A stretch of DNA of 64,000 nucleotides from Actinoplanes derwentensis (GTDB taxonomy: Bacteria > Actinomycetota > Actinomycetes > Mycobacteriales > Micromonosporaceae), in contig NZ_LT629758.1 of the NCBI RefSeq assembly GCF_900104725.1, positions 186,001-250,000 on the forward strand, read 5' to 3'. Below are positions 9,060-27,408 of the stretch, piece by piece; positions within the stretch are counted from its first letter, which is position 1; each line of letters opens with the position of its first letter. The notes under the pieces were generated by a model, which made no database searches, was not told where the DNA came from, and saw nothing but the letters and a program-made list of their open reading frames with translations. Both the position numbers and the translations under genes were made by a program.

Positions 9060-11351
9060 ATGGGTGTGTCGCAGCGGCTGAAGAGCCGGTTTCGCAAGTT
9101 TCTCCAGCGTCCGGGCACGACGGTGGATCTGGGGCCGCTGTCGAAGCGGCTCCCTGCCATCGAGGCGCGCGAGGACGCGCTGAAGGAGCTGGACGACGCC
9201 GCGCTGACCGAGGCGGCGCTGGAGGCGCGGGAGCACGCCGAGATCTGTGCGCTCGGCCGGGAGGCCTCCCGGCGGGCGATCGGCCAGCGGCCGTACGACG
9301 TTCAGCTGCTCGGCGCGATGGCCCTGCTGGACAAACGGGTCGCCGAGATGGCCACCGGTGAGGGCAAGACCCTGACGGCGACGATCGCGGCGTACGGGCA
9401 CACGCGCCTCGGCAACGGCCCGGTGCACATCCTCACGGTCAACGACTACCTGGCCAAGCGGGACGCCACCTGGATGGAGCCGATCTACACGCTGCTCGGC
9501 CTCACCGTCGGCTGGGTGACCGAGTCGATGACCCAGGAGGAACGCCGCGAGGCGTACGCCTGCGACGTCACGTACGTGTCGGTCAGCGAGGCCGGTTTCG
9601 ACTACCTGCGCGACCAGCTCGTCACCGACGTGGCCGACCGGGTGCAGCGCGACCTGGCCACCTGCATCGTCGACGAGGCCGACTCGATCCTGATCGACGA
9701 GGCCCGGGTGCCGATGGTGCTGGCCGGCAGCACGACCGCCGAGAGCAACCCGGTGAACGAGGCCGCCGCCCTGATCAAGGACCTGCGCAAGGGCTTCCAC
9801 TACGAGGCCGCCGAGGACGGGCGCAGTGTCGCCTTCACCGAGGACGGTCTGAAGGAGCTGGAGGAGAAGCTCGGCGGCATCGACCTCTACGCCGACGACC
9901 AGGTCGAGCACCTGTCCGCGGTGAACGTGGCGCTGCACGCGCACGCCCTGCTGCGCCGCGACGTCGACTACATCGTCCGCAACGGCAGCGTCGAGTTGAT
10001 CGACGAGATGCGCGGCCGGGTGGCCCAGCGCCGCCGCTGGCCGGACGGTCTGCAGGCGGCGGTCGAGGCCAAGGAGGGCCTGACCGCCACCCAGGAGGGC
10101 GAGGTCCTCGACACCATCACGGTCCAGGCGTACATCGCGCTCTACCAGACCGCCTGTGGCATGACCGCGACCGCCGTGCACGTCGGTGAGCAGCTGCGCG
10201 AGTATTTCAAGCTCGAAGTGGCGGTCATCCCGCCGAACACCCCGAACATCCGTGAGGACGACGTCGACCGGATCTACTCGGCGCACGACATGCGCGACGA
10301 GGCCCTGGTCGAGGAGATCAAGATCGCCCACGAGTCGGGGCGGCCGGTGCTGATCGGCACCCTGGACGTGAAGGCGTCCGAGCGCCTGGCGAGTCAGCTC
10401 GAAGCGGCCGGTGTGCCGTGCAGCGTGCTGAACGCGAAGAACGACGCCGAAGAGGCCACCATCATCGCGGAGGCGGGCGCGCTCGGCGCGGTCACCGTCT
10501 CCACCCAGATGGCCGGCCGTGGTGTCGACATCCGCCTCGGCGGCAGCGACGAGAAGGACCGCGACGCGGTGGTCGAGCTGGGCGGGCTCTACGTGATCGG
10601 CTCCGGCCGGCACGACAGCCGCCGGGTCGACGACCAGCTCCGCGGCCGGGCCGGCCGGCAGGGCGACCCGGGCCGCTCGGTCTTCTTCGTCAGCCTCGAG
10701 GACGAGCTGGTCTTCCGGCACGCCGGTGACATCCTGCCGGCCTCGCCGCGGATGGACATCGACGGCGTCGTGCACGACTCCCAGGTGGAATACGCCGTGG
10801 AGCACGCCCAGCGGGTCGCCGAGGGGGTCAACCACGAGATCCACAAGAACACCTGGCGCTACAGCGTGGTGACCGAGCAGCAGCGCCTGCTGCTCGCCGA
10901 GCGCCGTGAGCGGCTGCTCACCTCCGAGGTCGCCGCGATCATGCTGCTGGAGAAGTCCAAGGAGAAGGCTGAGGAGATCGACGAGGACGTGCTGTCCGAG
11001 TCGGCCCGCGCGATCGCCCTCTTCCACCTGGACCGCCTCTGGGTCGACCACCTGGCGTTCCTGTCCGAGGTCCGGGAGGGTGTGCACCTGCGCGCGCTCG
11101 GCAAGCTGGACCCGCTCGACGAGTTCCACCGGGCGGCGGTGCCGGCCTTCCAGGAGCTGCTGACGCAGGTCGAGTCGCGGACCATCGCGACGTTCGACGA
11201 GGTCGACCTGGAGGACGGCTGGGTGCCGGAGCGGGCGGAGATCGTCCGGCCGAGCGCCACCTGGACCTACCTGGTGCACGACAACCCGTTCGGTTCCGAG
11301 CTGGACCGGCTCATCGCGGCGGTCGGCCGGCGGCTCACCTCGGGCGGCTGA
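9060..11351 (+). CDS. secA2: Accessory Sec translocase ATPase SecA2
   Basis: This is a 763-residue SecA-family motor that powers export through the membrane channel SecYEG for a subset of proteins. Visible features include MATGEGKTL (Walker A, near residue 100), VDEADSIL (DEAD-box Walker B, near residue 205), STQMAGRGVDIRLGG and QLRGRAGRQGDPG (motifs V and VI). It is shorter than a housekeeping SecA (~900+) and lacks the C-terminal Cys/His zinc tail, as actinobacterial SecA2 does. I preferred ATG 9060, where family-like sequence begins; TTG at 9051 is an in-frame alternative. No accessory SecY2, Asp proteins or glycosyltransferases are nearby, so its substrates cannot be read from context. 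A hairpin follows the stop. Confidence 0.92.
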   Translation: MGVSQRLKSRFRKFLQRPGTTVDLGPLSKRLPAIEAREDALKELDDAALTEAALEAREHAEICALGREASRRAIGQRPYDVQLLGAMALLDKRVAEMATGEGKTLTATIAAYGHTRLGNGPVHILTVNDYLAKRDATWMEPIYTLLGLTVGWVTESMTQEERREAYACDVTYVSVSEAGFDYLRDQLVTDVADRVQRDLATCIVDEADSILIDEARVPMVLAGSTTAESNPVNEAAALIKDLRKGFHYEAAEDGRSVAFTEDGLKELEEKLGGIDLYADDQVEHLSAVNVALHAHALLRRDVDYIVRNGSVELIDEMRGRVAQRRRWPDGLQAAVEAKEGLTATQEGEVLDTITVQAYIALYQTACGMTATAVHVGEQLREYFKLEVAVIPPNTPNIREDDVDRIYSAHDMRDEALVEEIKIAHESGRPVLIGTLDVKASERLASQLEAAGVPCSVLNAKNDAEEATIIAEAGALGAVTVSTQMAGRGVDIRLGGSDEKDRDAVVELGGLYVIGSGRHDSRRVDDQLRGRAGRQGDPGRSVFFVSLEDELVFRHAGDILPASPRMDIDGVVHDSQVEYAVEHAQRVAEGVNHEIHKNTWRYSVVTEQQRLLLAERRERLLTSEVAAIMLLEKSKEKAEEIDEDVLSESARAIALFHLDRLWVDHLAFLSEVREGVHLRALGKLDPLDEFHRAAVPAFQELLTQVESRTIATFDEVDLEDGWVPERAEIVRPSATWTYLVHDNPFGSELDRLIAAVGRRLTSGG

Positions 11352-13473: not shown

Positions 13474-13624
13474 CGACACGCTTTTCCGGCGGCGAGGATA
13501 TCCACACGGCGAAATCGCCGCCGGGAGAGCGACATATCCATTACTGAACAACTGTTTATTCGATGTCGGTGAAATCCGCGGAACCGGCCGCCTCTCGGGT
13601 CGGGATACCGGTAGAACGGCAGGT

Positions 13625-13774
13625 ATGACCGACACCGTGGACGAACCCGAAGACAACACCGGCGGCGACTACGAGTACGACGAGGCCCACGGCGGCAACG
13701 ACGACGGGCCCGACGTCCCGGCGGCCCTCCTGCAGGAGGCCGCCCGCCACCGGGAGATGAGCCCGCCGGCCTGA
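13625..13774 (+). CDS. Small acidic hypothetical protein (49 residues)
   Basis: The short frame encodes a strongly acidic protein (MTDTVDEPEDNTGGDYEYDE at its start) ending in HREMSPPA. Codon third positions are mostly G or C, and AGGCAGG-like purines precede the ATG at a short distance. I do not recognise the family. The stop codon sits in a 37-bp tandem duplication, so the last six residues and stop are present twice in diverged form. Whether it is translated is uncertain. Its plus strand runs towards the convergent FtsK-like operon. Confidence 0.5.
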   Translation: MTDTVDEPEDNTGGDYEYDEAHGGNDDGPDVPAALLQEAARHREMSPPA

Positions 13775-13827
13775 CGCCAGGCCGATCGGGGAGATGGCCC
13801 CGCCGGCCTGAAGCTAGGCCGACTGGG
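13754..13827. repeat. 37-bp tandem duplication across a stop codon
   Basis: Copies 13754-13790 and 13791-13827 match at 31 of 37 positions. The first holds the stop of the small acidic gene. The second includes the TAG stop (13814-13816, minus strand) of the convergent membrane-protein gene. Confidence 0.75.
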
Positions 13828-14521
13828 CGACCTGCACGGCGGTGAAGAGCAGACCCGCGGTCACCAGCCCGGTGACCAGCACGGTCACCGTCGACGCCGT
13901 GTCGAGCCCGGTCCCGCGCCGGTCACCGATCAGTTTCGCGGTGATCGCCGCCAGGATCGGGAAGAAGAGCAGCACCAGCAGGGCGACCACCGGCGCGGCC
14001 TGATGCCAGTCGCCGCCCGCGGCCTCCCCGGTCCGCCGGACCAGCAGGTTGCCGACCACCCCCAGCACCCCACCGATCAGCCCCAGGACACCGAAGAGGA
14101 CTTTGGTGCCGAAGGTGATCGGCCGGGCCGGCGGGGTGTACTTGACCCGGTTCTCGACCTCGTCCAGGTAATCGCGGGCGGCGCGTTCCTCGGTCCGCTG
14201 ACGGGGGATGCTGGCCGCCGGCAGGGTGCGCCCGTACCGTTCGGCGGCCGGGCCCACCCGGTGCACGAAGTCCGACCACAGCCCGGCCGCCCGCGCGTCC
14301 ACCTGCTCCAGGTCACGTTGCGCGTCCCGGACCGCCCGGTCGGCCTCGGCCAGTTCCGCGGTGGCGTCCGCGACGGCCGTGTCGGCGGCGGCCACCCGTT
14401 CGGTGTACCAGCTCTCAGCCTCGGCCCGCAGACCGGCCGCCTTGTCGTCGAGAGTGGTCAGCCGGTGCAGCACCACCCGGTAGTCGGCGCGATCCAGGTC
14501 GGCCGGTTCCAGTTCACTCAT
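13814..14521 (-). CDS. Coiled-coil membrane protein, last gene of the FtsK/EccC-like operon
   Basis: The 235-residue protein starts with about 30 residues ending in a helix (YRVVLHRLTTLDDKAAGL), then a long charged coiled coil (~35-80, with VADATAELAEADRAVRDAQR), a linker, and three hydrophobic segments in the C-terminal half: LFGVLGLIGGVLGVVGNLLV, APVVALLVLLFFPILAAI, and VTVLVTGLVTAGLLFTAV. I do not recognise a named family. Its ATG overlaps the stop of the ATPase gene as ATGA, so the two are translationally coupled. The longer frame upstream is a shadow of the ATPase gene. By position and topology it could be the membrane anchor of the ATPase. Confidence 0.75.
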   Translation of the reverse strand: MSELEPADLDRADYRVVLHRLTTLDDKAAGLRAEAESWYTERVAAADTAVADATAELAEADRAVRDAQRDLEQVDARAAGLWSDFVHRVGPAAERYGRTLPAASIPRQRTEERAARDYLDEVENRVKYTPPARPITFGTKVLFGVLGLIGGVLGVVGNLLVRRTGEAAGGDWHQAAPVVALLVLLFFPILAAITAKLIGDRRGTGLDTASTVTVLVTGLVTAGLLFTAVQVAQSA

Positions 14522-17265
14522 GCGTTTCCATACGGGATGATCACTTCGGCGCCCCGATGCACCGAACGGTCGAAATGCAGGGCCCGCCACGGGCGCGGGT
14601 ACCAGTTCGGCGCTCCCTGGCCCGGGTAGTACGGCGACAGCTCGCTGCCGTGCACGTCCAGGGCCACCCAGGCGCCGATCGAGTCGGTCCGGGACGCGGG
14701 CCCGCCCAGCGACTCCCGCAGCAGCGCGGCACCGCGCCACCAGCCCAGCACGTGCAGCCGCCGTTCCGGCCCCTGCTGCAGGATGGTCCGGAGCTGGTCG
14801 CCGGCCGCCTTGCCACCGGGCAGTGCGTCGGCCGCGTAGATCAGGATGAAGTGCGGCCGGTCCGCCGGCCAGGACGCGGTCGCCTCGGTGGCGGCGTCCT
14901 CCAGGAGCCAGTTCAGGCCCTCGGCGTCGTACCAGCCGCTGCCGGGGATCCGGGCGTGCAGCGCCTCGGCAGCGGCCCGCGCGTCCGGGTCCAGGCAGAC
15001 CACCGAGAACCGGGCGCCGTCCGGGCCGAACTGGGCGGCCAGCGACCGGCCCGCGGTGGCCAGGATCGCGCAGGCCTCGTCCATCCGGGTGCCGATCACC
15101 GCCAGGTTGCGGCCGGGAGCGCGGCGCAGCACGGTCCGGGCCGACCGGGACTCCACGTCGATGGTCTCGCCGAGCAGGGCGATCGGCGCGGCCGGCGACT
15201 CGGTGGCCTGCATCTCCCGGAAGTCGGGGCTGTCGGCGAGTTTCGGGATCACGTCGCCGTCGAAGAGCCGCGGCGGCCCCTGCCCGTCCGGGCGGCGCCG
15301 CCACAGCCGGTGCTGCAGCGAACTCCACTGCTCCCGGTCCCCGGCGGCCGGCACCCGGACCACCCGGTTGGCCTCGACGGCACCGGAGTCGGCGTTGACC
15401 ACCGCGTGGTAGCGCGGCAGCGAGTCGGCGGCCGCGTTCGTCTCGGCCAGCACCCGCCGGGCCCGGGGCAGCGCGATCCGCAGGCTGAACTGGGCGACCA
15501 GCGCGGGCCGCCCCCACAGCGCCTCGATGCCGGACACGTCCTGGCTGGCCAGGATCAGATGGATACCCTGCGAACGGCCCCGCCGGGCGAGGTCCTCGAG
15601 CAGGTCGACGGCCTCACCGGACACCGCGTCGCGCCCGGACAGCAGCACCTGGAACTCGTCGACGACCGCCACGATCCGCGGCCACGACCCGTCCGGGTCC
15701 TCGGCGCGCAACTCGGCCAGGTTCGTCACCTCGTGCTGTTTGGCCGCGTCGGCCCGGCGCCGCAACTCGCCGCCGAGGAACCGCAGCAGCGCCAGCCCGA
15801 ACTCACGGTCGGTGTTGACGTTCACCCCGACCAGACGGACGTGCGGCAGCCAGCTCGGGTCCCGCCGCCCCGGCGCGAACCGGGCGAACGACACGCCCTC
15901 CTTGAAGTCGAGCAGGTAGAAGGCCAGTTCATCGGGGGAGTACCGGGCCGCTAGCGCGCCCATCCAGGCGTAGATGAAGTTGGTCTTGCCGGTTCCGGAC
16001 GGCCCGGCGATCAGTGCGTGCGGCGGATAGTCGCTCAGCGTCACCATCACCCGTGGGCCCTGCGGGCTGTCGCCGAGCGGAGCGGTCACTCCGGTCGCCG
16101 AACTCTCCCGCCACTCCGATCCCGCCTCGGGCAGCAGGCTGTCCAGTGCCACCGGGGCCGGGCCCGCCGCGACGGCCTCCGCGATCCGGCGGCACGTCGC
16201 CGTCACCACGGACGGACCGGGAGCGGGATCCAGTTGTACGGGTAACGCGCCCGCGCTCTGGATCCGGGCGTCCGCACCGGGCGCCGCCAGCACGAACTCG
16301 ATCCCCGGCCCGGTCGGCACCGGCAGCCCGCGGATCACCAGGTGCACCCCGCAGGCCGCGCCGGTCCGCAGCAGACGGTCCAGTTGGGACCGCTCGTGCC
16401 GGGACAGTTCCGGGCCGCCGAGCAGCACCGCCACCCGCCACGGTTCGGGCCGCCGCCGGGTGGCCAGGTGCAGCTCACGCAGCGAGCTGTACTCCCCGGC
16501 GAGGACCGTCTCGTTGATCCGCCGGACGTGCCCGACCAGGTCATCGAGCAGCTTGTCCAGTCCGCCCGGCCCGACGAAGGCGAGCACCCCGGCCGGGGCG
16601 AGCGGCGCGAACCCGGCCAGGCCGCCACCGAGGTTCTCCGGGTCGTACCCGACGATCTGGACCGCGCCCGGCACGCTGGTGCCCAGGGCCCGCAGCAGCA
16701 GCCCGGCCACCACCGCGTCGGCGGACCGGTGGTCGTCACCCTCGACCACGATGTGCCCGTGGTCCAGCAGTGCGACCAGGGCCGGCACCTCCGGAGGGGT
16801 GTCGTCGAGCCGTGGTTCCGGTGCGGCCTCGCCGGGGCGCGACGCCCAGGCCCCGGCCGCCCGGTCACCGCTGTCGTCGTCACCGGCCCGGGCCGGCACC
16901 GGGGCCTCCGGCAGGATCAGCCGGCCCACCCGTAGTTCCGCCGGGCGGTCCAGCGGGGTCGCCTCCCAGCGGTGCCAGGGTTCCCCGGCGGCACCCGGCG
17001 CGGCCCGGTCGGCGGCGGCCGCCGCGACTCCCACCAGGGCGGCCAGTTCGCCGTCGTGCCAGGCGGTGATCTCCACGGTGCGCCCGTCGCGGGCATCGGC
17101 CAGTTTCCGCTTACGGGCTTTCGCGGCAGCGGTCACCCGCCTGTACCGGGCCTCGGCCGCCTCCGCCGCGTCCTGCGCCCGGTGCAGGGCGATCTGTGCG
17201 GCGCCGAGCGCGTGGGACAGCCCGGCGCGGATCTCCATCACCCGGTTCTTGGTGGATTCAGGCAT
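14518..17265 (-). CDS. FtsK/SpoIIIE-type ATPase with EccC-like multi-domain layout
   Basis: A 915-residue motor protein. Residues ~10-95 form a coiled coil. Residues ~160-320 look like a degenerate RecA-like domain (HIVVEGDD, then WRVAVLLGGPELSRHERSQL). The central domain is the intact ATPase: Walker A GPSGTGKTN near residue 421, YLLDFKEGV, and Walker B RIVAVVDEFQVL near 530, with LILASQDVSGIEAL following. A third, degenerate domain (RNLAVIGTRMDEACAILATAG, then PHFILIYAADALPGG) fills the C-terminus. There is no N-terminal membrane segment and no DNA-binding gamma domain, so it is not a chromosome translocase. The chain of one active and two inactive modules recalls EccC of type VII secretion, but here the active module is central. 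It is coupled to the membrane protein downstream and lies 24 nt after the helical protein gene. Confidence 0.85.
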   Translation of the reverse strand: MPESTKNRVMEIRAGLSHALGAAQIALHRAQDAAEAAEARYRRVTAAAKARKRKLADARDGRTVEITAWHDGELAALVGVAAAAADRAAPGAAGEPWHRWEATPLDRPAELRVGRLILPEAPVPARAGDDDSGDRAAGAWASRPGEAAPEPRLDDTPPEVPALVALLDHGHIVVEGDDHRSADAVVAGLLLRALGTSVPGAVQIVGYDPENLGGGLAGFAPLAPAGVLAFVGPGGLDKLLDDLVGHVRRINETVLAGEYSSLRELHLATRRRPEPWRVAVLLGGPELSRHERSQLDRLLRTGAACGVHLVIRGLPVPTGPGIEFVLAAPGADARIQSAGALPVQLDPAPGPSVVTATCRRIAEAVAAGPAPVALDSLLPEAGSEWRESSATGVTAPLGDSPQGPRVMVTLSDYPPHALIAGPSGTGKTNFIYAWMGALAARYSPDELAFYLLDFKEGVSFARFAPGRRDPSWLPHVRLVGVNVNTDREFGLALLRFLGGELRRRADAAKQHEVTNLAELRAEDPDGSWPRIVAVVDEFQVLLSGRDAVSGEAVDLLEDLARRGRSQGIHLILASQDVSGIEALWGRPALVAQFSLRIALPRARRVLAETNAAADSLPRYHAVVNADSGAVEANRVVRVPAAGDREQWSSLQHRLWRRRPDGQGPPRLFDGDVIPKLADSPDFREMQATESPAAPIALLGETIDVESRSARTVLRRAPGRNLAVIGTRMDEACAILATAGRSLAAQFGPDGARFSVVCLDPDARAAAEALHARIPGSGWYDAEGLNWLLEDAATEATASWPADRPHFILIYAADALPGGKAAGDQLRTILQQGPERRLHVLGWWRGAALLRESLGGPASRTDSIGAWVALDVHGSELSPYYPGQGAPNWYPRPWRALHFDRSVHRGAEVIIPYGNA

Positions 17266-17289
17266 GACCCGCCGGCATCGTCGCAGTTG

Positions 17290-18204
17290 TCATTTCTTGT
17301 CCTCGGCCTGCTCCGGGCGGGGGCGGACCGGCTCCGGGGTGCTCGGATCCAGGGTGCCGGCGTCCCGGCCGAGCCGGGCCAGCAGCACCCCGGTCAGCAC
17401 ACTCGCGGTGACCGCGGTGTCGGCCGGGTGGCCGGCCGGCTGATCGCCGCGTTTCTGCTGCTGTTGCTGGACCGGCACCCGGCAGATCCGGTCCAGCAGG
17501 GTCTCCAGCACGTGCGGTTCGGTGCCCGGCAGCAGCGCTTTCACCCGGCCCTCGGCGGCGGTGCGCAGCCGGGGCACGTCCTCCGGCCGCGGGTCGTGGC
17601 CGAGCAGGTCACCGGCGAGCCGGTGCAGCACGGCCGGGGTGACCGCGGACAGACCCAGGCCGGTGGACGCGTTCACCCCGTGCAGCTCGCGGCCCAGCCG
17701 GGCCCGGTCACCGGCCCGCACCCCGGCGGCGACCCGGCGCAGCAGCTCGGAGGTGTCGCCCGGCTCCCCGGTCTTGCCGGCCTGCTCGCTGGACGGGGCC
17801 TCACCGGTCAGCTTGGCGACCCGCTGCTGCCACCACGGGCCGAGGGCCTCCGGTTTCTGCGGGGCGTCCGTCGGCTGCTCCGGGCGCGGCTGGTCGGTCT
17901 CGCGCCGCAGGGCGGTGCGCCACTCCTGGCCGGGCGCGGCACCCGGGGTGGCGCCGATGCCCAGCACCGCCAGGTAGCGCTCGATCGCGTCCTCACAGGC
18001 GCGCAGCGCGGCCGCGGCGTTCTCGGTGTGCTCGGTGGCGTGGCCGATGCGGACGACTCCGATGTCCTGGCTGGACTCCTCCTGGACCCAGCGGAGCAAC
18101 TCGGCGGCGCTCCGGAGCTTGTTCATCGCGGCGGCCACCTCACCGGTGGGTAGACCGTCGGCGGCGGCGCGGAGCTGGGCGCCGAGATCCTGCAGCAGCG
18201 ACAT
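17290..18204 (-). CDS. Uncharacterised helical protein of the FtsK/EccC-like operon
   Basis: The 304-residue protein begins MSLLQDLGAQLRAAADG with several amphipathic helices (to ~residue 95). A central acidic/Pro-rich linker with a Trp pair (PWWQQRVAKL) follows, then a helical domain (~150-250) containing RRVAAGVRAGDRARLGREL and VLETLLDRICRV, a run of five glutamines, and a short tail rich in Pro, Glu and Arg. No catalytic motif, signal peptide or membrane segment is seen. I place the start at ATG 18204, where the family-like helix begins, 4 nt after the small helical gene; the longer frame upstream overlaps that gene. It may be a scaffold or adaptor between the small helical protein and the ATPase. 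That is inference from operon position only. Confidence 0.7.
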   Translation of the reverse strand: MSLLQDLGAQLRAAADGLPTGEVAAAMNKLRSAAELLRWVQEESSQDIGVVRIGHATEHTENAAAALRACEDAIERYLAVLGIGATPGAAPGQEWRTALRRETDQPRPEQPTDAPQKPEALGPWWQQRVAKLTGEAPSSEQAGKTGEPGDTSELLRRVAAGVRAGDRARLGRELHGVNASTGLGLSAVTPAVLHRLAGDLLGHDPRPEDVPRLRTAAEGRVKALLPGTEPHVLETLLDRICRVPVQQQQQKRGDQPAGHPADTAVTASVLTGVLLARLGRDAGTLDPSTPEPVRPRPEQAEDKK

Positions 18205-18208
18205 CGTG

Positions 18209-18469
18209 TCAGAGGTTCGCCGTGTAGTTGTGAGCCTGCTCGACCGCCGCCAGGGTCGCGGTGAACGAATCCTCCAGCTGCTGCTCGGCCTGCGACAGCG
18301 AGGCGTGTGCGGCTCCGACGGCGTCGCTGGCGCTGCCGTCGAGGGCGGCGGCGAGGCTCTGCTGGGCCTCGCCGATCTTCTCGCGCGCCGCCTGGATCGC
18401 CTGCTGCCCCTCCGTGACCTGCTGAAGCGCGGCCTCCACGGCAGCTCTGAGTTCGGCGACACTGGCCAC
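18209..18469 (-). CDS. Small helical-hairpin protein (WXG100-like size), first gene of the operon
   Basis: The 86-residue protein is almost all alpha-helical with a break at DGSASDA near its middle, so a two-helix hairpin like ESAT-6/WXG100 proteins is likely. There is no W-x-G motif; the turn carries DGSAS instead. The C-terminus reads HNYTANL. GTG start at 18469 has AGGAGG nine bases upstream, the best ribosome-binding site of the operon, consistent with higher expression than the genes behind it. Gene order (small helical protein, helical protein, FtsK-type ATPase, membrane protein) suggests it is the substrate or a subunit of the machine. No secretion signal can be proven. Confidence 0.75.
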   Translation of the reverse strand: MASVAELRAAVEAALQQVTEGQQAIQAAREKIGEAQQSLAAALDGSASDAVGAAHASLSQAEQQLEDSFTATLAAVEQAHNYTANL

Positions 18470-18712
18470 CCGGGCAGCCTCCTGTGCGGGTTTACGACTT
18501 GCGGTCCCAGACTACCGCCCGGTTGTCGCCGGGGCGTCCTCCGGTGCCCTGTTTCGACGCACCGTGCCGACTGTGACACGACGCCCGTTTTCTCGGGGGA
18601 CCCGACGATCCCCCTGGTGGAATCGTATCCGAAAATGATCCACTATGGACTCGCTAGTCCCCTCGGGGTCACCTGGTGCGGTAATGAACAGCGGCGCGGC
18701 GGAGTGACGGGC

Positions 18713-19153
18713 TCAGCGCGGAACCGCGGACGGGCCGCGCACCTCGGCGCCCAGGGCGGTCACCCGGTCCCGCAGGCCACGGTCGGCGGTGATCACGACC
18801 GTGCGCCGGGTGGGGGCCGTCACCCGTACCAAATCGACGATCTTGTCATCGCCGGAGCCGGTGGCGCGCTCGATCCGCACCCCACCGGGGCCCGGCGGGA
18901 CGTCCCGGGCCCGGCCCTCGACCACCAGGACCACCTCGACCGGCGCCGCCAGGCCGGGCAGGCCCGCGGCGGGGACCACCGCCAGGTTGTCGCGGAGCCG
19001 TGCCGCCGCACCCGCCCGGTCGCGCCACCAGCCGTCCGGGACCGAACCGACGACGTTCGCCCCGTCGACGATCACGACCGGTGGGCCCGGGGTGGCCGGT
19101 TCCGGCTCCTGGAAGTCCGGCGTGAGGGAGGGTGGTTCCTGGGACACCGCCAT
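18713..19153 (-). CDS. NYN/PIN-like domain protein (putative RNase)
   Basis: The 146-residue protein has the NYN/PIN fold pattern: strand VVIVDGANVVG with the first acidic residue, WWRDRAGAAARLRDNL, VEVVLVVEGRARDV, a conserved GSGDDKIVDLV with an Asp pair, and TVVITADRGLRDRV with the last Asp. These acidic residues bind metal in the related RNases (YacP, NYN). The ATG at 19153 is chosen because TACACT lies 7 nt upstream, typical of a leaderless start, and the protein begins just before the domain; an earlier GTG at 19213 would add 20 residues. It is divergent from clpC, and its -10 box overlaps the HAIR-like operator, so both genes may respond to protein stress. Confidence 0.75.
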   Translation of the reverse strand: MAVSQEPPSLTPDFQEPEPATPGPPVVIVDGANVVGSVPDGWWRDRAGAAARLRDNLAVVPAAGLPGLAAPVEVVLVVEGRARDVPPGPGGVRIERATGSGDDKIVDLVRVTAPTRRTVVITADRGLRDRVTALGAEVRGPSAVPR

Positions 19154-19154
19154 G

Positions 19155-19179
19155 AAGTTGAGTGTAGTCGTGTCAACTT
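19155..19179. promoter_or_regulatory. HAIR-like inverted repeat (probable HspR operator) between NYN gene and clpC
   Basis: Seven-base arms AAGTTGA (19155-19161) and TCAACTT (19173-19179) are separated by 11 nt. The HAIR consensus CTTGAGT-N7-ACTCAAG also gives TTGA-N11-TCAA, and here TTGAGT is kept on the left. The site overlaps the -10 box of the NYN gene and lies 95 nt before the clpC start. HspR binding is inferred. Confidence 0.6.
19161..19166 (-). promoter_or_regulatory. -10 box TACACT of the NYN gene (leaderless)
   Basis: On the minus strand TACACT lies 7 nt before ATG 19153, spacing that puts the transcript start at or next to the ATG. Confidence 0.5.
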
Positions 19180-19273
19180 TTTTCGCGATCCGGGAATCGC
19201 CGGCGAGGTTCACACGCTGTTGACAACCAGGCGGCGCGAGTTTGCCGCCCAGGTTTCAGGAGAAGAGGAATCA

Positions 19274-21790
19274 ATGAGCATCGGACCGTTCGGGCCGGCT
19301 GGGCCCGGTCAGTGGGACGACCTGTTCGCCCGCTTCTTCGGTGCGGCCGAGCCGCGCCGGTCGGCGCAGCGTTTCGACATCGCCCGTTACATGAGTAACG
19401 ACGCCCGTCAGGTGCTCGGCGACGCCGCGCGCCGGGCCGCCGAAGTGGCCGGCGGGGGCCGCTCGCTCGCCGACCTCGACACCGACCACCTGCTCTGGGC
19501 GGTCCTGCAGCAGGAGCCGATGAAACAGACGGTCCGGCGTGCCGGTGCCGACCCGGACCGCCTGCTCGCCGAGATGGGCCGGCCCGAAGCCGCCGCCGGT
19601 GAACTGCCGGAGAGCATCGCGCTGACCCCGGCCGCCAAACGCGCGCTGCTGGACAGTCTGCAGATCTCCCGCGCGGTCGGCGCCTCCTACATCGGCCCCG
19701 AGCACATCCTGATGGCGCTCGGACTGAACACCGACTCCGCGGCCGGCCGTCTGCTGGCCGGCCGGATCGTCGACCCGCGGACCATGCCGCACCACAGTGA
19801 GCTGCCCAAACCCAACAGTGGCGGGCCGCACGCGCAGCTGGCGCCGACGCCCACGCTGGAGCAGTTCGGCGTGGACCTGACCGAGTCCGCCCGGCGCGGT
19901 GAGATCGACCCGGTGATCGGCCGGGCCGACGAGATCGAGCAGGCCGTCGAGATCCTGTCCCGGCGTACCAAGAACAATCCGGTCCTGATCGGTGAGGCCG
20001 GGGTCGGCAAGACCGCCGTGGTGGAGGGGCTGGCCCAGCGGATCGTCGACGGCGAGGTGCCGCTCACCCTGCAGGACAAGCGGGTCATTCAGCTCGACCT
20101 GGCCGGGCTGGTCGCGGGCACCAAGTACCGCGGCGACTTCGAGGAGCGCCTGAAGAAGGTGATCGAGGAGATCAAGGCGTCCGGCGACCAGCTGATCGTC
20201 TTCCTCGATGAGATCCACACCCTGGTCGGCGCGGGTGGCGGCGGTGAGGGCGGCGGCATGGACGCCGGCAACATGCTCAAACCGGCCCTGGCCCGCGGGC
20301 AGCTGCGGGTGATCGGCGCGACCACCCTGGACGAGTACCGCAAGCACATCGAGAAGGACGCGGCCCTGGCCCGGCGTTTCCAGCCGGTGGTGATCGGCGA
20401 GCCGAGCGTCGAGGACACCGTCGCGATCCTGCGGGGGTTGCGAGACAACTACGAGGCCCACCATCAGGTACGGATCACCGACGCCGCCCTGGACGCGGCG
20501 GCCGTGCTCTCCGACCGGTACATCACCGACCGTTTCCTGCCGGACAAGGCGATCGACCTGATCGACCAGGCCGGCGCCCGGGTCCGGCTGCGTACCAAGA
20601 CCCCGGACGCCAACCGTCGCGAGATGAACCACCGTCTCGAACAACTGTCCCGCGACCGGGACCAGGCCGTTGCCGCCGAGCACTACGAGCAGGCGTCCGA
20701 ACTGCGCGACCAGATCAACTCGCTGCGGCAACAACTCGCGGGGGGTCCCGCCGGAGCCGGGGTGCCGCAGGTGACCGAGGAGGAGATCGCCGAGGTCGTC
20801 TCCCGTGCCACCGGGATCCCGGTGGCCCAGCTCACCGAGGCCGAGCGGGACCGCCTGCTGCGTCTGGAGGAGCACCTGCACACGCACGTCATCGGACAGG
20901 ACGACGCGGTCGAGGCCGTCGCCGAGGCGGTGCGCCGCTCCCGGGCCGGGCTCGGTGACCCGGACCGGCCGGTCGGCAGCTTCCTGTTCCTCGGCCCGAC
21001 CGGAGTCGGCAAGACCGAACTGGCCCGTTCCCTGGCCGGGGCGCTGTTCGGCGACGCGGACCGGATGATCCGGCTCGACATGAGCGAGTTCCAGGAACGG
21101 CACACCGTGTCGCGGCTGGTCGGGGCGCCGCCCGGGTACGTCGGGTACGACGAGGCCGGGCAGCTCACCGAGGCGGTGCGGCGCCGGCCGTACAGCGTGG
21201 TGCTGCTCGACGAGATCGAGAAGGCCCACCCGGACGTCTTCAACATGCTGTTGCAGGTGCTCGACGACGGGCGGCTCACCGACAGCCAGGGGCGCACGGT
21301 CAGCTTCAAGAACACCGTGCTCATCATGACCAGCAACCTGGGGTCGGACCTGATCAGCGGCACCACCCGCAGCGTCGGCTTCGGCGGTTCCTCGTCACCG
21401 GACGACGACCTGCGGGCCCGGCTCGACAAGCGGCTCAAGGAGCAACTGCGGCCGGAGTTCATCAACCGGATCGACGAGATCATCATCTTCCGGCAACTGG
21501 AGAGCGACCAGCTCCACAAGATCACCGAGATGATGCTCGCCGACACCCGGCGCCGCCTGGACGCTCAGGACGTCAAGCTGGAGGTCACCCCGGAGGCGGT
21601 GGACTGGCTGTCCGAGCGGGGCTTCCAGCCAGAGTTCGGGGCCCGGCCGCTGCGCCGGACCATCCAGCGGGAGCTGGACAACCGGCTGTCGAAGATGCTG
21701 ATCGCGGCGGATCTGGCACCGGGCCGGACGGTCCGGGTCGACGCCCGGGACGGCTCACTGGTCTTCGACGTCGCGATGTCGGCGGTCTGA
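19274..21790 (+). CDS. clpC: ClpC-type ATP-dependent unfoldase (Clp protease ATP-binding subunit)
   Basis: The 838-residue AAA+ protein unfolds substrates and feeds them to ClpP. After an N-terminal extension and a Clp_N repeat domain (~50-170) come two ATPase modules with Walker A motifs GEAGVGKTA (near 240) and GPTGVGKTE (near 580). The first is followed by [14 protein letters not shown], the second by [20 protein letters not shown]. The middle region is short and has a UVR-like helix pair ([12 protein letters not shown]), and the second module has the VGF loop (TRSVGFGG) used to dock on ClpP. Both features identify ClpC rather than ClpB. The ATG at 19274 has GAAGAGGA upstream. The HAIR-like operator suggests heat/HspR control, which is better known for clpB and dnaK. 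A housekeeping clpC elsewhere is likely, so this may be a paralogue. Confidence 0.88.
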
Positions 21791-26535: not shown

Positions 26536-27408
26536 TCAGTTTCCGGCAATCCGGTACGGCTCGATACTCGGCAGCTCCGTGAGGTCGGCAGACGCCTTGA
26601 GCGCGGCCATGGACCCGCCGATCGCCTTCAGTGCGTTCTCGGCGTGGGTGGAGGCGTTCGACATCTCCTGGTAGAGGTCGACCGCGTAGACGGCGTAGCT
26701 CAACGCCACCGAATAGCCGATCACGGACCCGGCCAGTGTGGCGATCATGGCGGTTCCGCTGGCGCGGCCGATGCTCACCCCCAGCAGTGCATCGACCATC
26801 TTGACGATGAACCCGCTGATCACATCGTAGAAGTTCTTCACGCATTCGGCCGACTCCCGGTACAGGGTGTTGAAGGTGTCCCCGAGCTGCTGGAGCGATC
26901 TCGCTGCGACGGCGAGTCTCAGTTCGTACTCCTGGAAGTTCTCGGCCGCGTTGCCCCGCCACACCGACGGCACCGCGACAGCTCCGGCGGCCAGGTTGTC
27001 ACCGATGGAACCGGCGGCGGCACCCGCGTTCGCCATGGCGACCCCGGCCAGGATGTACGAGTCCCAGTCGCCGGCGAACCACTCCGTCCACAGTTCGAAC
27101 GGGTCGTGATGGAAGACCCAGATCGCCGCCTGCCGCAGATAGGCGAACGGGCTGATCAGGTCGACCATCGGATTGAAGGACCAGAATTCGGCCTGCGGAT
27201 CCCGGGGTGTCACCAGGCGATCGACCGGCTCGCCGACGTCCGAGAACGGGGAATGGCCGGCCGGTAGCCGCAGACGCTCCTGGGTCAGGGTGTTCGCCAG
27301 GATGTCAGGGTCCGCCGCGCCCCGGCCGCGTGACGTCCAGGTCGCGGGCGGCTCGCAGCTCCTCCCGCGAGTATTCGACCTGTGCGATGTTGACTTGAGT
27401 GGCCGCAT
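26536..27408 (-). CDS. WXG100-like protein with C-terminal hydrophobic helices
   Basis: The recognisable part is a helix-turn-helix hairpin around the W-x-G motif: AVPSVWRGNAAENFQEYE, followed by a second helix (LAVAARSLQQLGDTFNTLY). This resembles long ESX/type VII substrates such as LXG or PPE-like proteins. Before it lie about 130 residues with aromatic-rich FWSFNPMVDLISPFAYLRQ. After it come hydrophobic helices (GFIVKMVDALLGVSIGRA; GTAMIATLAGSVIGYSVAL) like the C-terminal parts of secreted or membrane-active proteins. The true start is unclear: ATG 27408 overlaps the preceding gene by 104 bases, and no ATG or GTG lies at the overlap end; GTG near 27215 is another option. No T7SS core genes are in the window. 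Confidence 0.6.
   Translation of the reverse strand: MRPLKSTSHRSNTRGRSCEPPATWTSRGRGAADPDILANTLTQERLRLPAGHSPFSDVGEPVDRLVTPRDPQAEFWSFNPMVDLISPFAYLRQAAIWVFHHDPFELWTEWFAGDWDSYILAGVAMANAGAAAGSIGDNLAAGAVAVPSVWRGNAAENFQEYELRLAVAARSLQQLGDTFNTLYRESAECVKNFYDVISGFIVKMVDALLGVSIGRASGTAMIATLAGSVIGYSVALSYAVYAVDLYQEMSNASTHAENALKAIGGSMAALKASADLTELPSIEPYRIAGN

Follow-up and report, generated by a model that had tools for sequence, protein, structure and literature searches.

A conserved actinobacterial operon with an EccC/EssC-related ATPase and small proteins lacking W-x-G: a possible stand-alone type VII-like motor

The operon and its conservation

The window analysed here, a 64,000-nucleotide stretch of the 10.65-Mb genome of Actinoplanes derwentensis (contig NZ_LT629758.1), carries on its minus strand, at 13814..18469, a quartet of genes encoding, in this order, proteins of 86, 304, 915 and 235 amino acids, the third of which is an ATPase of the FtsK/EccC superfamily with its closest relatives in Actinoplanes. 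An initial annotation, made from the sequence alone, had proposed that these genes form an operon for an uncharacterised, minimal EccC-like machine. Its description of the gene ends and junctions holds: each gene is a single open frame, and the DNA has a 4-nt gap between the 86-aa and 304-aa genes, a 24-nt gap between the 304-aa gene and the ATPase gene, and an ATGA overlap at 14521-14518 between the genes for the ATPase and the 235-aa protein. The ribosome-binding site of the first gene, initially judged the best, is likewise present, as AGGAGG at 18478..18483 (minus strand, read from the DNA), 8 nt upstream of the GTG start at 18469. Comparison of the window with other loci yielded dN/dS values of at most 0.65 for all four genes (8/8 compared), which indicates that the operon is more than a set of chance open frames. 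A scan of 13500-19300 found no sigma-70-like promoter, which weighs little given that the host is an actinomycete with 70% G+C.

The family ATPase occurs in 54 of 394 genomes of the class (E 1e-50) and in 63 of 81 Micromonosporaceae genomes (E 1e-100), and the small 86-aa protein in 64 of the latter (E 1e-5). Both are encoded by 62 of these 81 genomes and neither by 16, with the ATPase alone in one (G416) and the small protein alone in two (G395 and G435); the co-occurrence has a Fisher P of 7.5e-14, uncorrected for relatedness. The genes are also syntenic in relatives, so that the lack of synteny named initially as a refutation did not occur: in one scan all four were found in 18 of 19 Micromonosporaceae loci, the nineteenth (L022) beginning within the ATPase gene. 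Among loci from 40 of the 63 ATPase-bearing genomes, the small protein was found in 37, the second gene in 38 and the membrane protein encoded by the fourth gene in 29; in five of these loci (L235, L236, L238, L243 and L262) the nearest small-protein match is, judging by its distance, probably the N-terminus of the second gene's product, and the genome search places a separate copy upstream in each of those five genomes. The ClpC gene neighbouring the operon in the window lies within the fetched flanks in only 10 of these 40 loci, so the operon has been retained in varying surroundings. Across the class, 39 of 65 ATPase places were surveyed (the 4.4-kb contig L078 was left out of the locus counts): a matching small protein (about 86 aa) lies no more than five genes off at 23 of them, a WXG100-like protein is present at six, a 201-aa protein (with marginal scores) at seven and neither at three, although at one of these three (L104) the small gene, missed by the simple custom gene finder used for the locus scans, was located by genome search.

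The ATPase and its kinship to EccC and EssC

FtsK_SpoIIIE, at residues 389-578, is the sole Pfam family above cut-off in the ATPase (14518..17265, minus strand), and the Pfam scan detected no FtsK gamma domain. The best NCBIfam models are EccCa (90.7 bits), EssC (64.0 bits) and EccCb (59.0 bits), whereas FtsK reaches 18.1 bits; all these scores lie far under the curated cut-offs (509 bits for EccCa, 1566 bits for FtsK), so that the protein is to be seen as a relative, not a member, of the EccC/EssC families. Its matches in the PDB are, in descending order, 4nh0 (filed as 'Cell division FtsK/SpoIIIE', presumably the EccC of T. curvata), YukB, EccC5 and then FtsK chains (2iuu, E 1.2e-6), and the EccC-like character suggested initially is thus supported by both searches.

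One Walker A motif (GPSGTGKT, residues 421-428, 15982-16005) and one Walker B motif (VAVVDEF, residues 532-538, 15652-15672) are present, both within a central RecA module (residues 385-655, 15301..16113), which in profile comparison matches module 1 of the EccC from the same genome at 99.6%. Of 54 family ATPases, 53 have exactly one P-loop and the other has none. A degenerate RecA-like module without a P-loop precedes the central one (residues 157-345, 16231..16797), matching it at 57% (P 1e-4), EccC module 2 at 75% (P 2.4e-5) and EccC module 1 at 10%, and the C-terminal region (residues 690-912, 14530..15198) may be a second degenerate module, its match to the central module being 22% (P 9e-4). 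The initial view that the active module is the central one is therefore upheld, while of the envisaged architecture of one intact and two degenerate modules the intact and the N-terminal one stand and the C-terminal one hardly does; that there are three modules is less secure than that only the middle one is active. No membrane segment was found in the window's ATPase at a hydropathy of at least 1.6, and the weak segments (1.61-1.99) seen in 18 of 49 family ATPases scanned are taken as buried strands. The N-terminus looks helical by eye.

In a tree of the central module, the branch splitting the family from EccC module 1 is supported by values of 100/99, with ATPases associated with WXG100 proteins (e.g. 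that of a Caballeronia plasmid) falling on the family's side; this tree was inferred without EccC D2 modules, FtsK, near-copies, the paralogue L071 and an ATPase of integrative-element type, and it fixes neither the branching order within the family nor which of the two states, with WXG100 or without W, is ancestral. An earlier tree that included EccC module 2 and the genome's FtsK gave the family's own branch 91/58 and placed FtsK beside the family with low support (74/65), where its branch is long and 28% of its columns are filled. The scores thus favour kinship with EccC/EssC, and the trees neither contradict this nor settle the place of FtsK. A phage origin of the ATPase was considered and set aside, as none of the 27 matching phage records matches across more than 80% of the protein.

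The small proteins and the membrane protein

We use the name HP for the small helical family of 86 and 83 aa to which the first gene's product (18209..18469, minus strand) belongs. A search with candidates limited to 0.55-1.75 times the query length returned 204 database matches, and among the 120 listed 64 have 83 aa, 55 have 86 aa and one has 147 aa. Members of the family, predicted from sequence to be helical hairpins, mostly begin with M-A-S-[VI]-x-E-V-[KR] and tend to end with Y-x-x-x-L (Y in 48/74, L in 62/73). In the 86-aa type a glycine occupies the putative turn in 48 of the 53 members having that column; it is absent from the 83-aa type. The W-x-G motif, already noted as missing from the window's protein, occurs in none of the 120 matches listed and in none of 74 non-redundant members, nor does any of these 74 contain W-x-[GDS].

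Several comparisons nevertheless suggest that HP may be akin to WXG100. Profile comparison with true WXG100 proteins of the same genome aligns the two in register over 68 columns, with the turn glycine on that of W-x-G, although the value is only 41.9% (P 2.7e-4), and a narrower HP alignment gives 31.4%. As controls, unrelated helical stretches of the same loci reach at most 2.5%, and against a pooled WXG100 profile, where the unshuffled value is 37.1%, none of 20 column shuffles exceeds 2.1%. The score against PF06013 is 12.9 bits, under the gathering cut-off of 27.3 bits. Apart from a spike-protein construct, the best PDB match of the small protein is chain 4lws_A (E 0.0078), which we take to be an actinobacterial Esx protein; residues 43-45 (LDG) align with its W-x-G (WEG), glycine on glycine. 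The spike-protein construct itself (E 2.1e-5, although none of its individual stretches falls below E 4) was dismissed as a chance helix match, as were DUF6244 (16.8 bits), on which the literature searched contained no paper, the exonuclease VII small subunit and others, five leads in all with the PDB one. Absence of W-x-G alone does not exclude WXG100 kinship, since PF06013 members above the cut-off can lack it here: at three loci of the window's genome (L143, L149 and L150) such members have, by eye, a Y replacing the W, with FtsK-family frames of 1472-1496 aa at a distance of a few kb. In Micromonosporaceae, 15 of 20 further places (L283-L289 and L295-L302) were seen to carry one or more members of the 86-aa family, singly or in tandem, with a family ATPase only at L302; L298 has three copies in a row, the last of which (218 aa) bears a C-terminal extension. 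Elsewhere in the window, about 8 kb from the operon, 26539-26973 (minus strand) encodes a weak WXG100 or EspA-like piece (E 0.03-0.05).

The second gene (17290..18204, minus strand) was initially described simply as encoding a helical protein, which proves incomplete. Residues 1-86 of the 304-aa product (17947..18204) match the HP profile at 93.9% (P 1.6e-7; 78.5% with the narrower alignment) and are collinear with the family end to end, and so are a second HP copy; unrelated helical stretches score at most 1.9% and 20 column shuffles at most 0.7%. They are followed by a conserved domain (residues 121-280, 17365..17844) in which W124, W125, R128 and V129 are each conserved at 90% or more, and whose fold has no known match, searches of the PDB and Pfam finding none. 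Pseudonocardiales have two small genes in tandem ahead of the ATPase gene in 36 of 36 loci (one of these records, L045, is filed as Nocardia sp.), and no fusion was seen there. We considered whether the 304-aa protein could be a polymorphic toxin and dropped the idea, since among its 395 matches the 120 listed, itself included, cover at least 96% of the protein.

The fourth gene (13814..14521, minus strand) encodes a protein with an N-terminal part without membrane segments followed by three predicted by hydropathy at residues 135-153, 175-193 and 211-229 (13835..14119). All 20 members of its cluster, counting the window's own, have exactly three such segments, which bears out the three membrane segments of the initial description.

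Relatives, precedents and possible function

The ATPase family extends to plasmids, 66 records of which match and six of which were opened. The Caballeronia plasmid (L189) encodes a vWA protein, WXG100, a coiled-coil-like protein, the ATPase, CARF, a second vWA protein, PP2C and a kinase, and that from Helicobacter (L190:5128-9530) a WXG100-like protein, a coiled-coil protein ending in a WHH nuclease, SMI1/KNR4 and a middle-active ATPase, the nuclease and its SMI1/KNR4 neighbour resembling, by analogy, exported toxin-immunity pairs. One Rhodococcus plasmid (L188) has Hsp70, J-TPR and GrpE genes, the ATPase gene and an 86-aa member of the window's HP family, and a second (L191) a WXG100-like protein and TerD genes; a weak WXG100-like gene lies near the ATPase gene on a Deinococcus plasmid, and none was seen on that from Rothia. 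For the WXG100-like neighbours of same-family ATPases, PF06013 was the best family in all five tested (of six), at 20.9-25.5 bits, below its cut-off. Upstream of the ATPase gene, L127 has a J-domain-TPR gene and L128, by eye, a DnaK-like gene adjoining a J-like protein with only a weak TPR match.

The window's own genome, to whose neighbourhoods the PADLOC search was confined, holds paralogues as well. L074 has the small gene, and L072 and L073 each have an 86-aa gene of their own type. At L073 (about 6.11 Mb) the ATPase and 86-aa genes are transcribed divergently from a gene for PglW (PADLOC, 1589 bits), and at L072 (about 5.43 Mb), where the ATPase gene has an in-frame stop, from a gene for an N6-methylase accompanied by an AAA_21 ATPase, with mad2/mad3 scores. 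The paralogue operon at L074 (11367-12996) is divergent from genes for two further proteins, one of 104 aa and weakly WXG100-like (17.1 bits), the other of 331 aa and matching WXG100_2 (36.6 bits). A general defence role, considered from the PglW and methylase neighbours, was set aside, as no defence gene was recognised by eye among the large neighbours at 8 of 20 other paralogue loci. Close to the operon in the window lies a gene for a 763-aa SecA-type ATPase (9060-11351, plus strand), whose cluster is found within the flanks of 12 loci (the window and 11 of 55 others).

The initial idea of an uncharacterised machine needs qualifying in the light of the literature. Zhang 2012 (PMC3482391, Table 1 footnote 6) lists stand-alone operons of WXG100 and EssC-like (YueA-like) genes with only the middle ATPase module active, and the accessible part of Bell 2024 (PMC11090510, section 10), which cites Anantharaman 2012 for stand-alone operons, describes CoCoNuT loci with a middle-active ATPase that has an N-terminal coiled coil and no transmembrane domains, together with two WXG100 proteins, one of them without WxG, and a coiled-coil nuclease. 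Because middle-active ATPases beside WXG100 have been published there, including in mobile type VII-like operons, the operon type itself is not new. In the passages seen of a survey of Kaur-Aravind-type conflict systems (PMC7159879), FtsK domains are mentioned only as inactive effectors. We found no bench test of this operon family in the literature searched, subscription papers being mostly outside its reach.

The window's operon shares with these stand-alone operons a middle-active ATPase without membrane helices and small partners, possibly WXG100-like, with no EccB/D/E noted, and in Bell's loci, as far as described in that part of the paper, one of two partners is W-x-G-less as well. It differs in its partner family of 86 and 83 aa, entirely without WxG, in the membrane protein at the fourth place in Micromonosporaceae, in that no nuclease or TerY-P genes were recognised in it, and in being chromosomal, syntenic and actinobacterial, a group absent from the footnote 6 list. 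With the EccC/EssC motors of ESX and T7SSb it has in common an FtsK-superfamily ATPase adjoining small helical proteins, often in tandem pairs, but its ATPase lacks membrane helices and has a single, central P-loop. Pfam identified no EccB, EccD, EccE, mycosin, EssA, EssB or EsaA in the operon or in ten flanking frames on both strands between 8180 and 22810, in agreement with the initial report of no EccB/D/E or mycosin. HP resembles WXG100 (PF06013) in its length of about 86 aa, helicity, the turn glycine of the 86-aa type in register, tandem pairs and solo copies, and differs in its sub-cut-off score, its lack of W-x-G and YxxxD/E and its limited profile match. What is new here is an actinobacterial branch whose partner family of 86 and 83 aa is devoid of W-x-G; a 304-aa gene that opens with a second HP copy, which is a separate gene in Pseudonocardiales; and the joint presence of ATPase and small protein in 62 of 81 Micromonosporaceae genomes, with a fourth protein that differs between Micromonosporaceae and Pseudonocardiales.

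EccC carries its own membrane helices. The reading we favour, with about even confidence, is that the four genes specify a reduced, stand-alone relative of the type VII (EccC/EssC) motor that pushes or remodels a pair of hairpin proteins at the membrane. Two Esx-like hairpins, one being the 86-aa protein and the other the N-terminal domain of the 304-aa protein, would probably form a heterodimer; the ATPase, probably a ring with only its central RecA module active, would bind this pair; the three-segment protein would probably tether the ATPase to the membrane, a task that EccC's own helices perform in EccC; and ATP hydrolysis in the middle module would drive the hairpin complex into the membrane or through it, the C-terminal domain of the 304-aa protein being the cargo. 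The sequences themselves establish the gene set, its order and conservation, the single active module, the kinship to EccC/EssC, the second HP copy and the predicted membrane segments, none in the window's ATPase and three in the fourth protein; the hairpin fold, dimer, ring, tether and translocation are our inference. HP genes also seem to share the habits of Esx genes, occurring as tandem pairs before the ATPase gene (36/36), fused to a further domain and as solo copies. The WXG100-like neighbours of other ATPases in the family and the toxin-immunity-like pair on the Helicobacter plasmid likewise speak for this reading.

A series of observations weighs against this reading. W-x-G is absent from all 74 HP members, and the family shows no YxxxD/E consensus at its C-terminus (Y is followed by xxxL), a feature given in the accessible text of Poulsen 2014 (PMC3935865). 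The match of HP to true WXG100 is modest, that to the WXG100-like neighbours of sister ATPases is 7.9% (0.6% with the narrower alignment), and the N-terminal domain of the 304-aa protein matches WXG100 at 3.2%. The small gene accompanies only 6 of 20 distant paralogue loci in relatives (five in one scan, one of them 3.8 kb off, and L280 in a second); none is shown at L071, the nearest paralogue in the window's genome (53% identity), and L073 has only the ATPase and the small protein. Unlike polymorphic toxins, the 304-aa protein is conserved end to end. Against pure export in particular stand a putative cargo domain that is not toxin-like, some relatives located among chaperone or defence genes, and the fourth-place protein of Pseudonocardiales, which lacks membrane segments at all 36 loci; the membrane subunit thus appears to be lineage-specific, its place being taken by a seemingly soluble protein there. 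Of the minimal EccC-like machine originally envisaged, the kinship, the conserved operon and the central active module remain, secretion is a matter of conjecture, and the three-segment membrane protein is not a universal part.

This soluble partner and the gene neighbourhoods speak for the main rival, which we regard as possible if on balance improbable: a cytosolic stress or defence machine that secretes nothing and whose ATPase acts on the hairpin proteins within the cell, remodelling or assembling them to serve as sensors, adaptors or filaments. Relatives near Hsp70, J-domain-TPR and GrpE genes (L188), a J-domain-TPR gene (L127) or a DnaK-like gene (L128, by eye), near CARF, vWA, PP2C and kinase genes (L189) or near TerD genes (L191), as well as the two own-genome paralogues beside PglW and beside the N6-methylase and AAA ATPase with mad2/mad3 scores, would all fit such a role. 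The membrane protein encoded by the fourth gene in Micromonosporaceae speaks against it, and the link to defence does not look general, since at the 8 of 20 paralogue loci where none was recognised (large neighbours judged by eye, with no random-locus comparison) two neighbours instead resemble glutamate synthase genes.

Two further explanations would keep the ATPase within better-known systems. It could be a helper motor of true ESX systems, plugging with its hairpins into EccB/EccD complexes encoded elsewhere, and EccB is indeed found in 80 of the 81 Micromonosporaceae genomes, including all 63 with the ATPase. We consider this very unlikely: EccB is also present in 17 of 18 ATPase-less genomes, so ESX does not need the ATPase (with EccB in 80 of 81 genomes, distribution cannot tell whether the ATPase depends on ESX), the ATPase lacks the membrane helices of EccC, and a relative resides on a plasmid of Helicobacter, a group that is not known to have ESX. 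Harder still to credit is a DNA translocase moving chromosomes or plasmids, like FtsK or the septal SffA of Streptomyces. FtsK_SpoIIIE as the only Pfam family above cut-off, the matching FtsK chains in the PDB and the weak placement of the genome's FtsK beside the family in the first tree point that way, as does SffA, which, by the description in the part of the report seen (PMC4255298), is likewise an FtsK-like ATPase paired with a small protein. In the same review, however, that partner, SmeA, is described as a membrane protein of sporulation septa, and only streptomycetes, Kitasatospora and Catenulispora are said to have the pair; moreover, the window's ATPase has no FtsK gamma domain, scores far better with EccCa than with FtsK, and is matched better by EccC and YukB chains than by FtsK chains.

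A more far-reaching version of the favoured reading, which we put forward as rather doubtful, is that the operon represents a third widespread actinobacterial type VII-like machine, with no core membrane complex, a dedicated W-x-G-less hairpin heterodimer and its anchor on a separate, exchangeable subunit. Were this so, the operon would define the smallest set of parts for a working Esx-type motor and would mean that an Esx pair is able to become a conserved household component. How the Esx motor moves its substrates, and which parts it needs, is an open question in the field, for which a system of a single active module, a pair of hairpin domains and a small membrane protein, whose ATPase and small protein occur together in 62 of 81 sampled Micromonosporaceae genomes and are both absent from 16, may offer a tractable test case. 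If true, the favoured reading would also imply that a number of actinobacterial proteins named 'cell division protein FtsK' are type VII-like motors.

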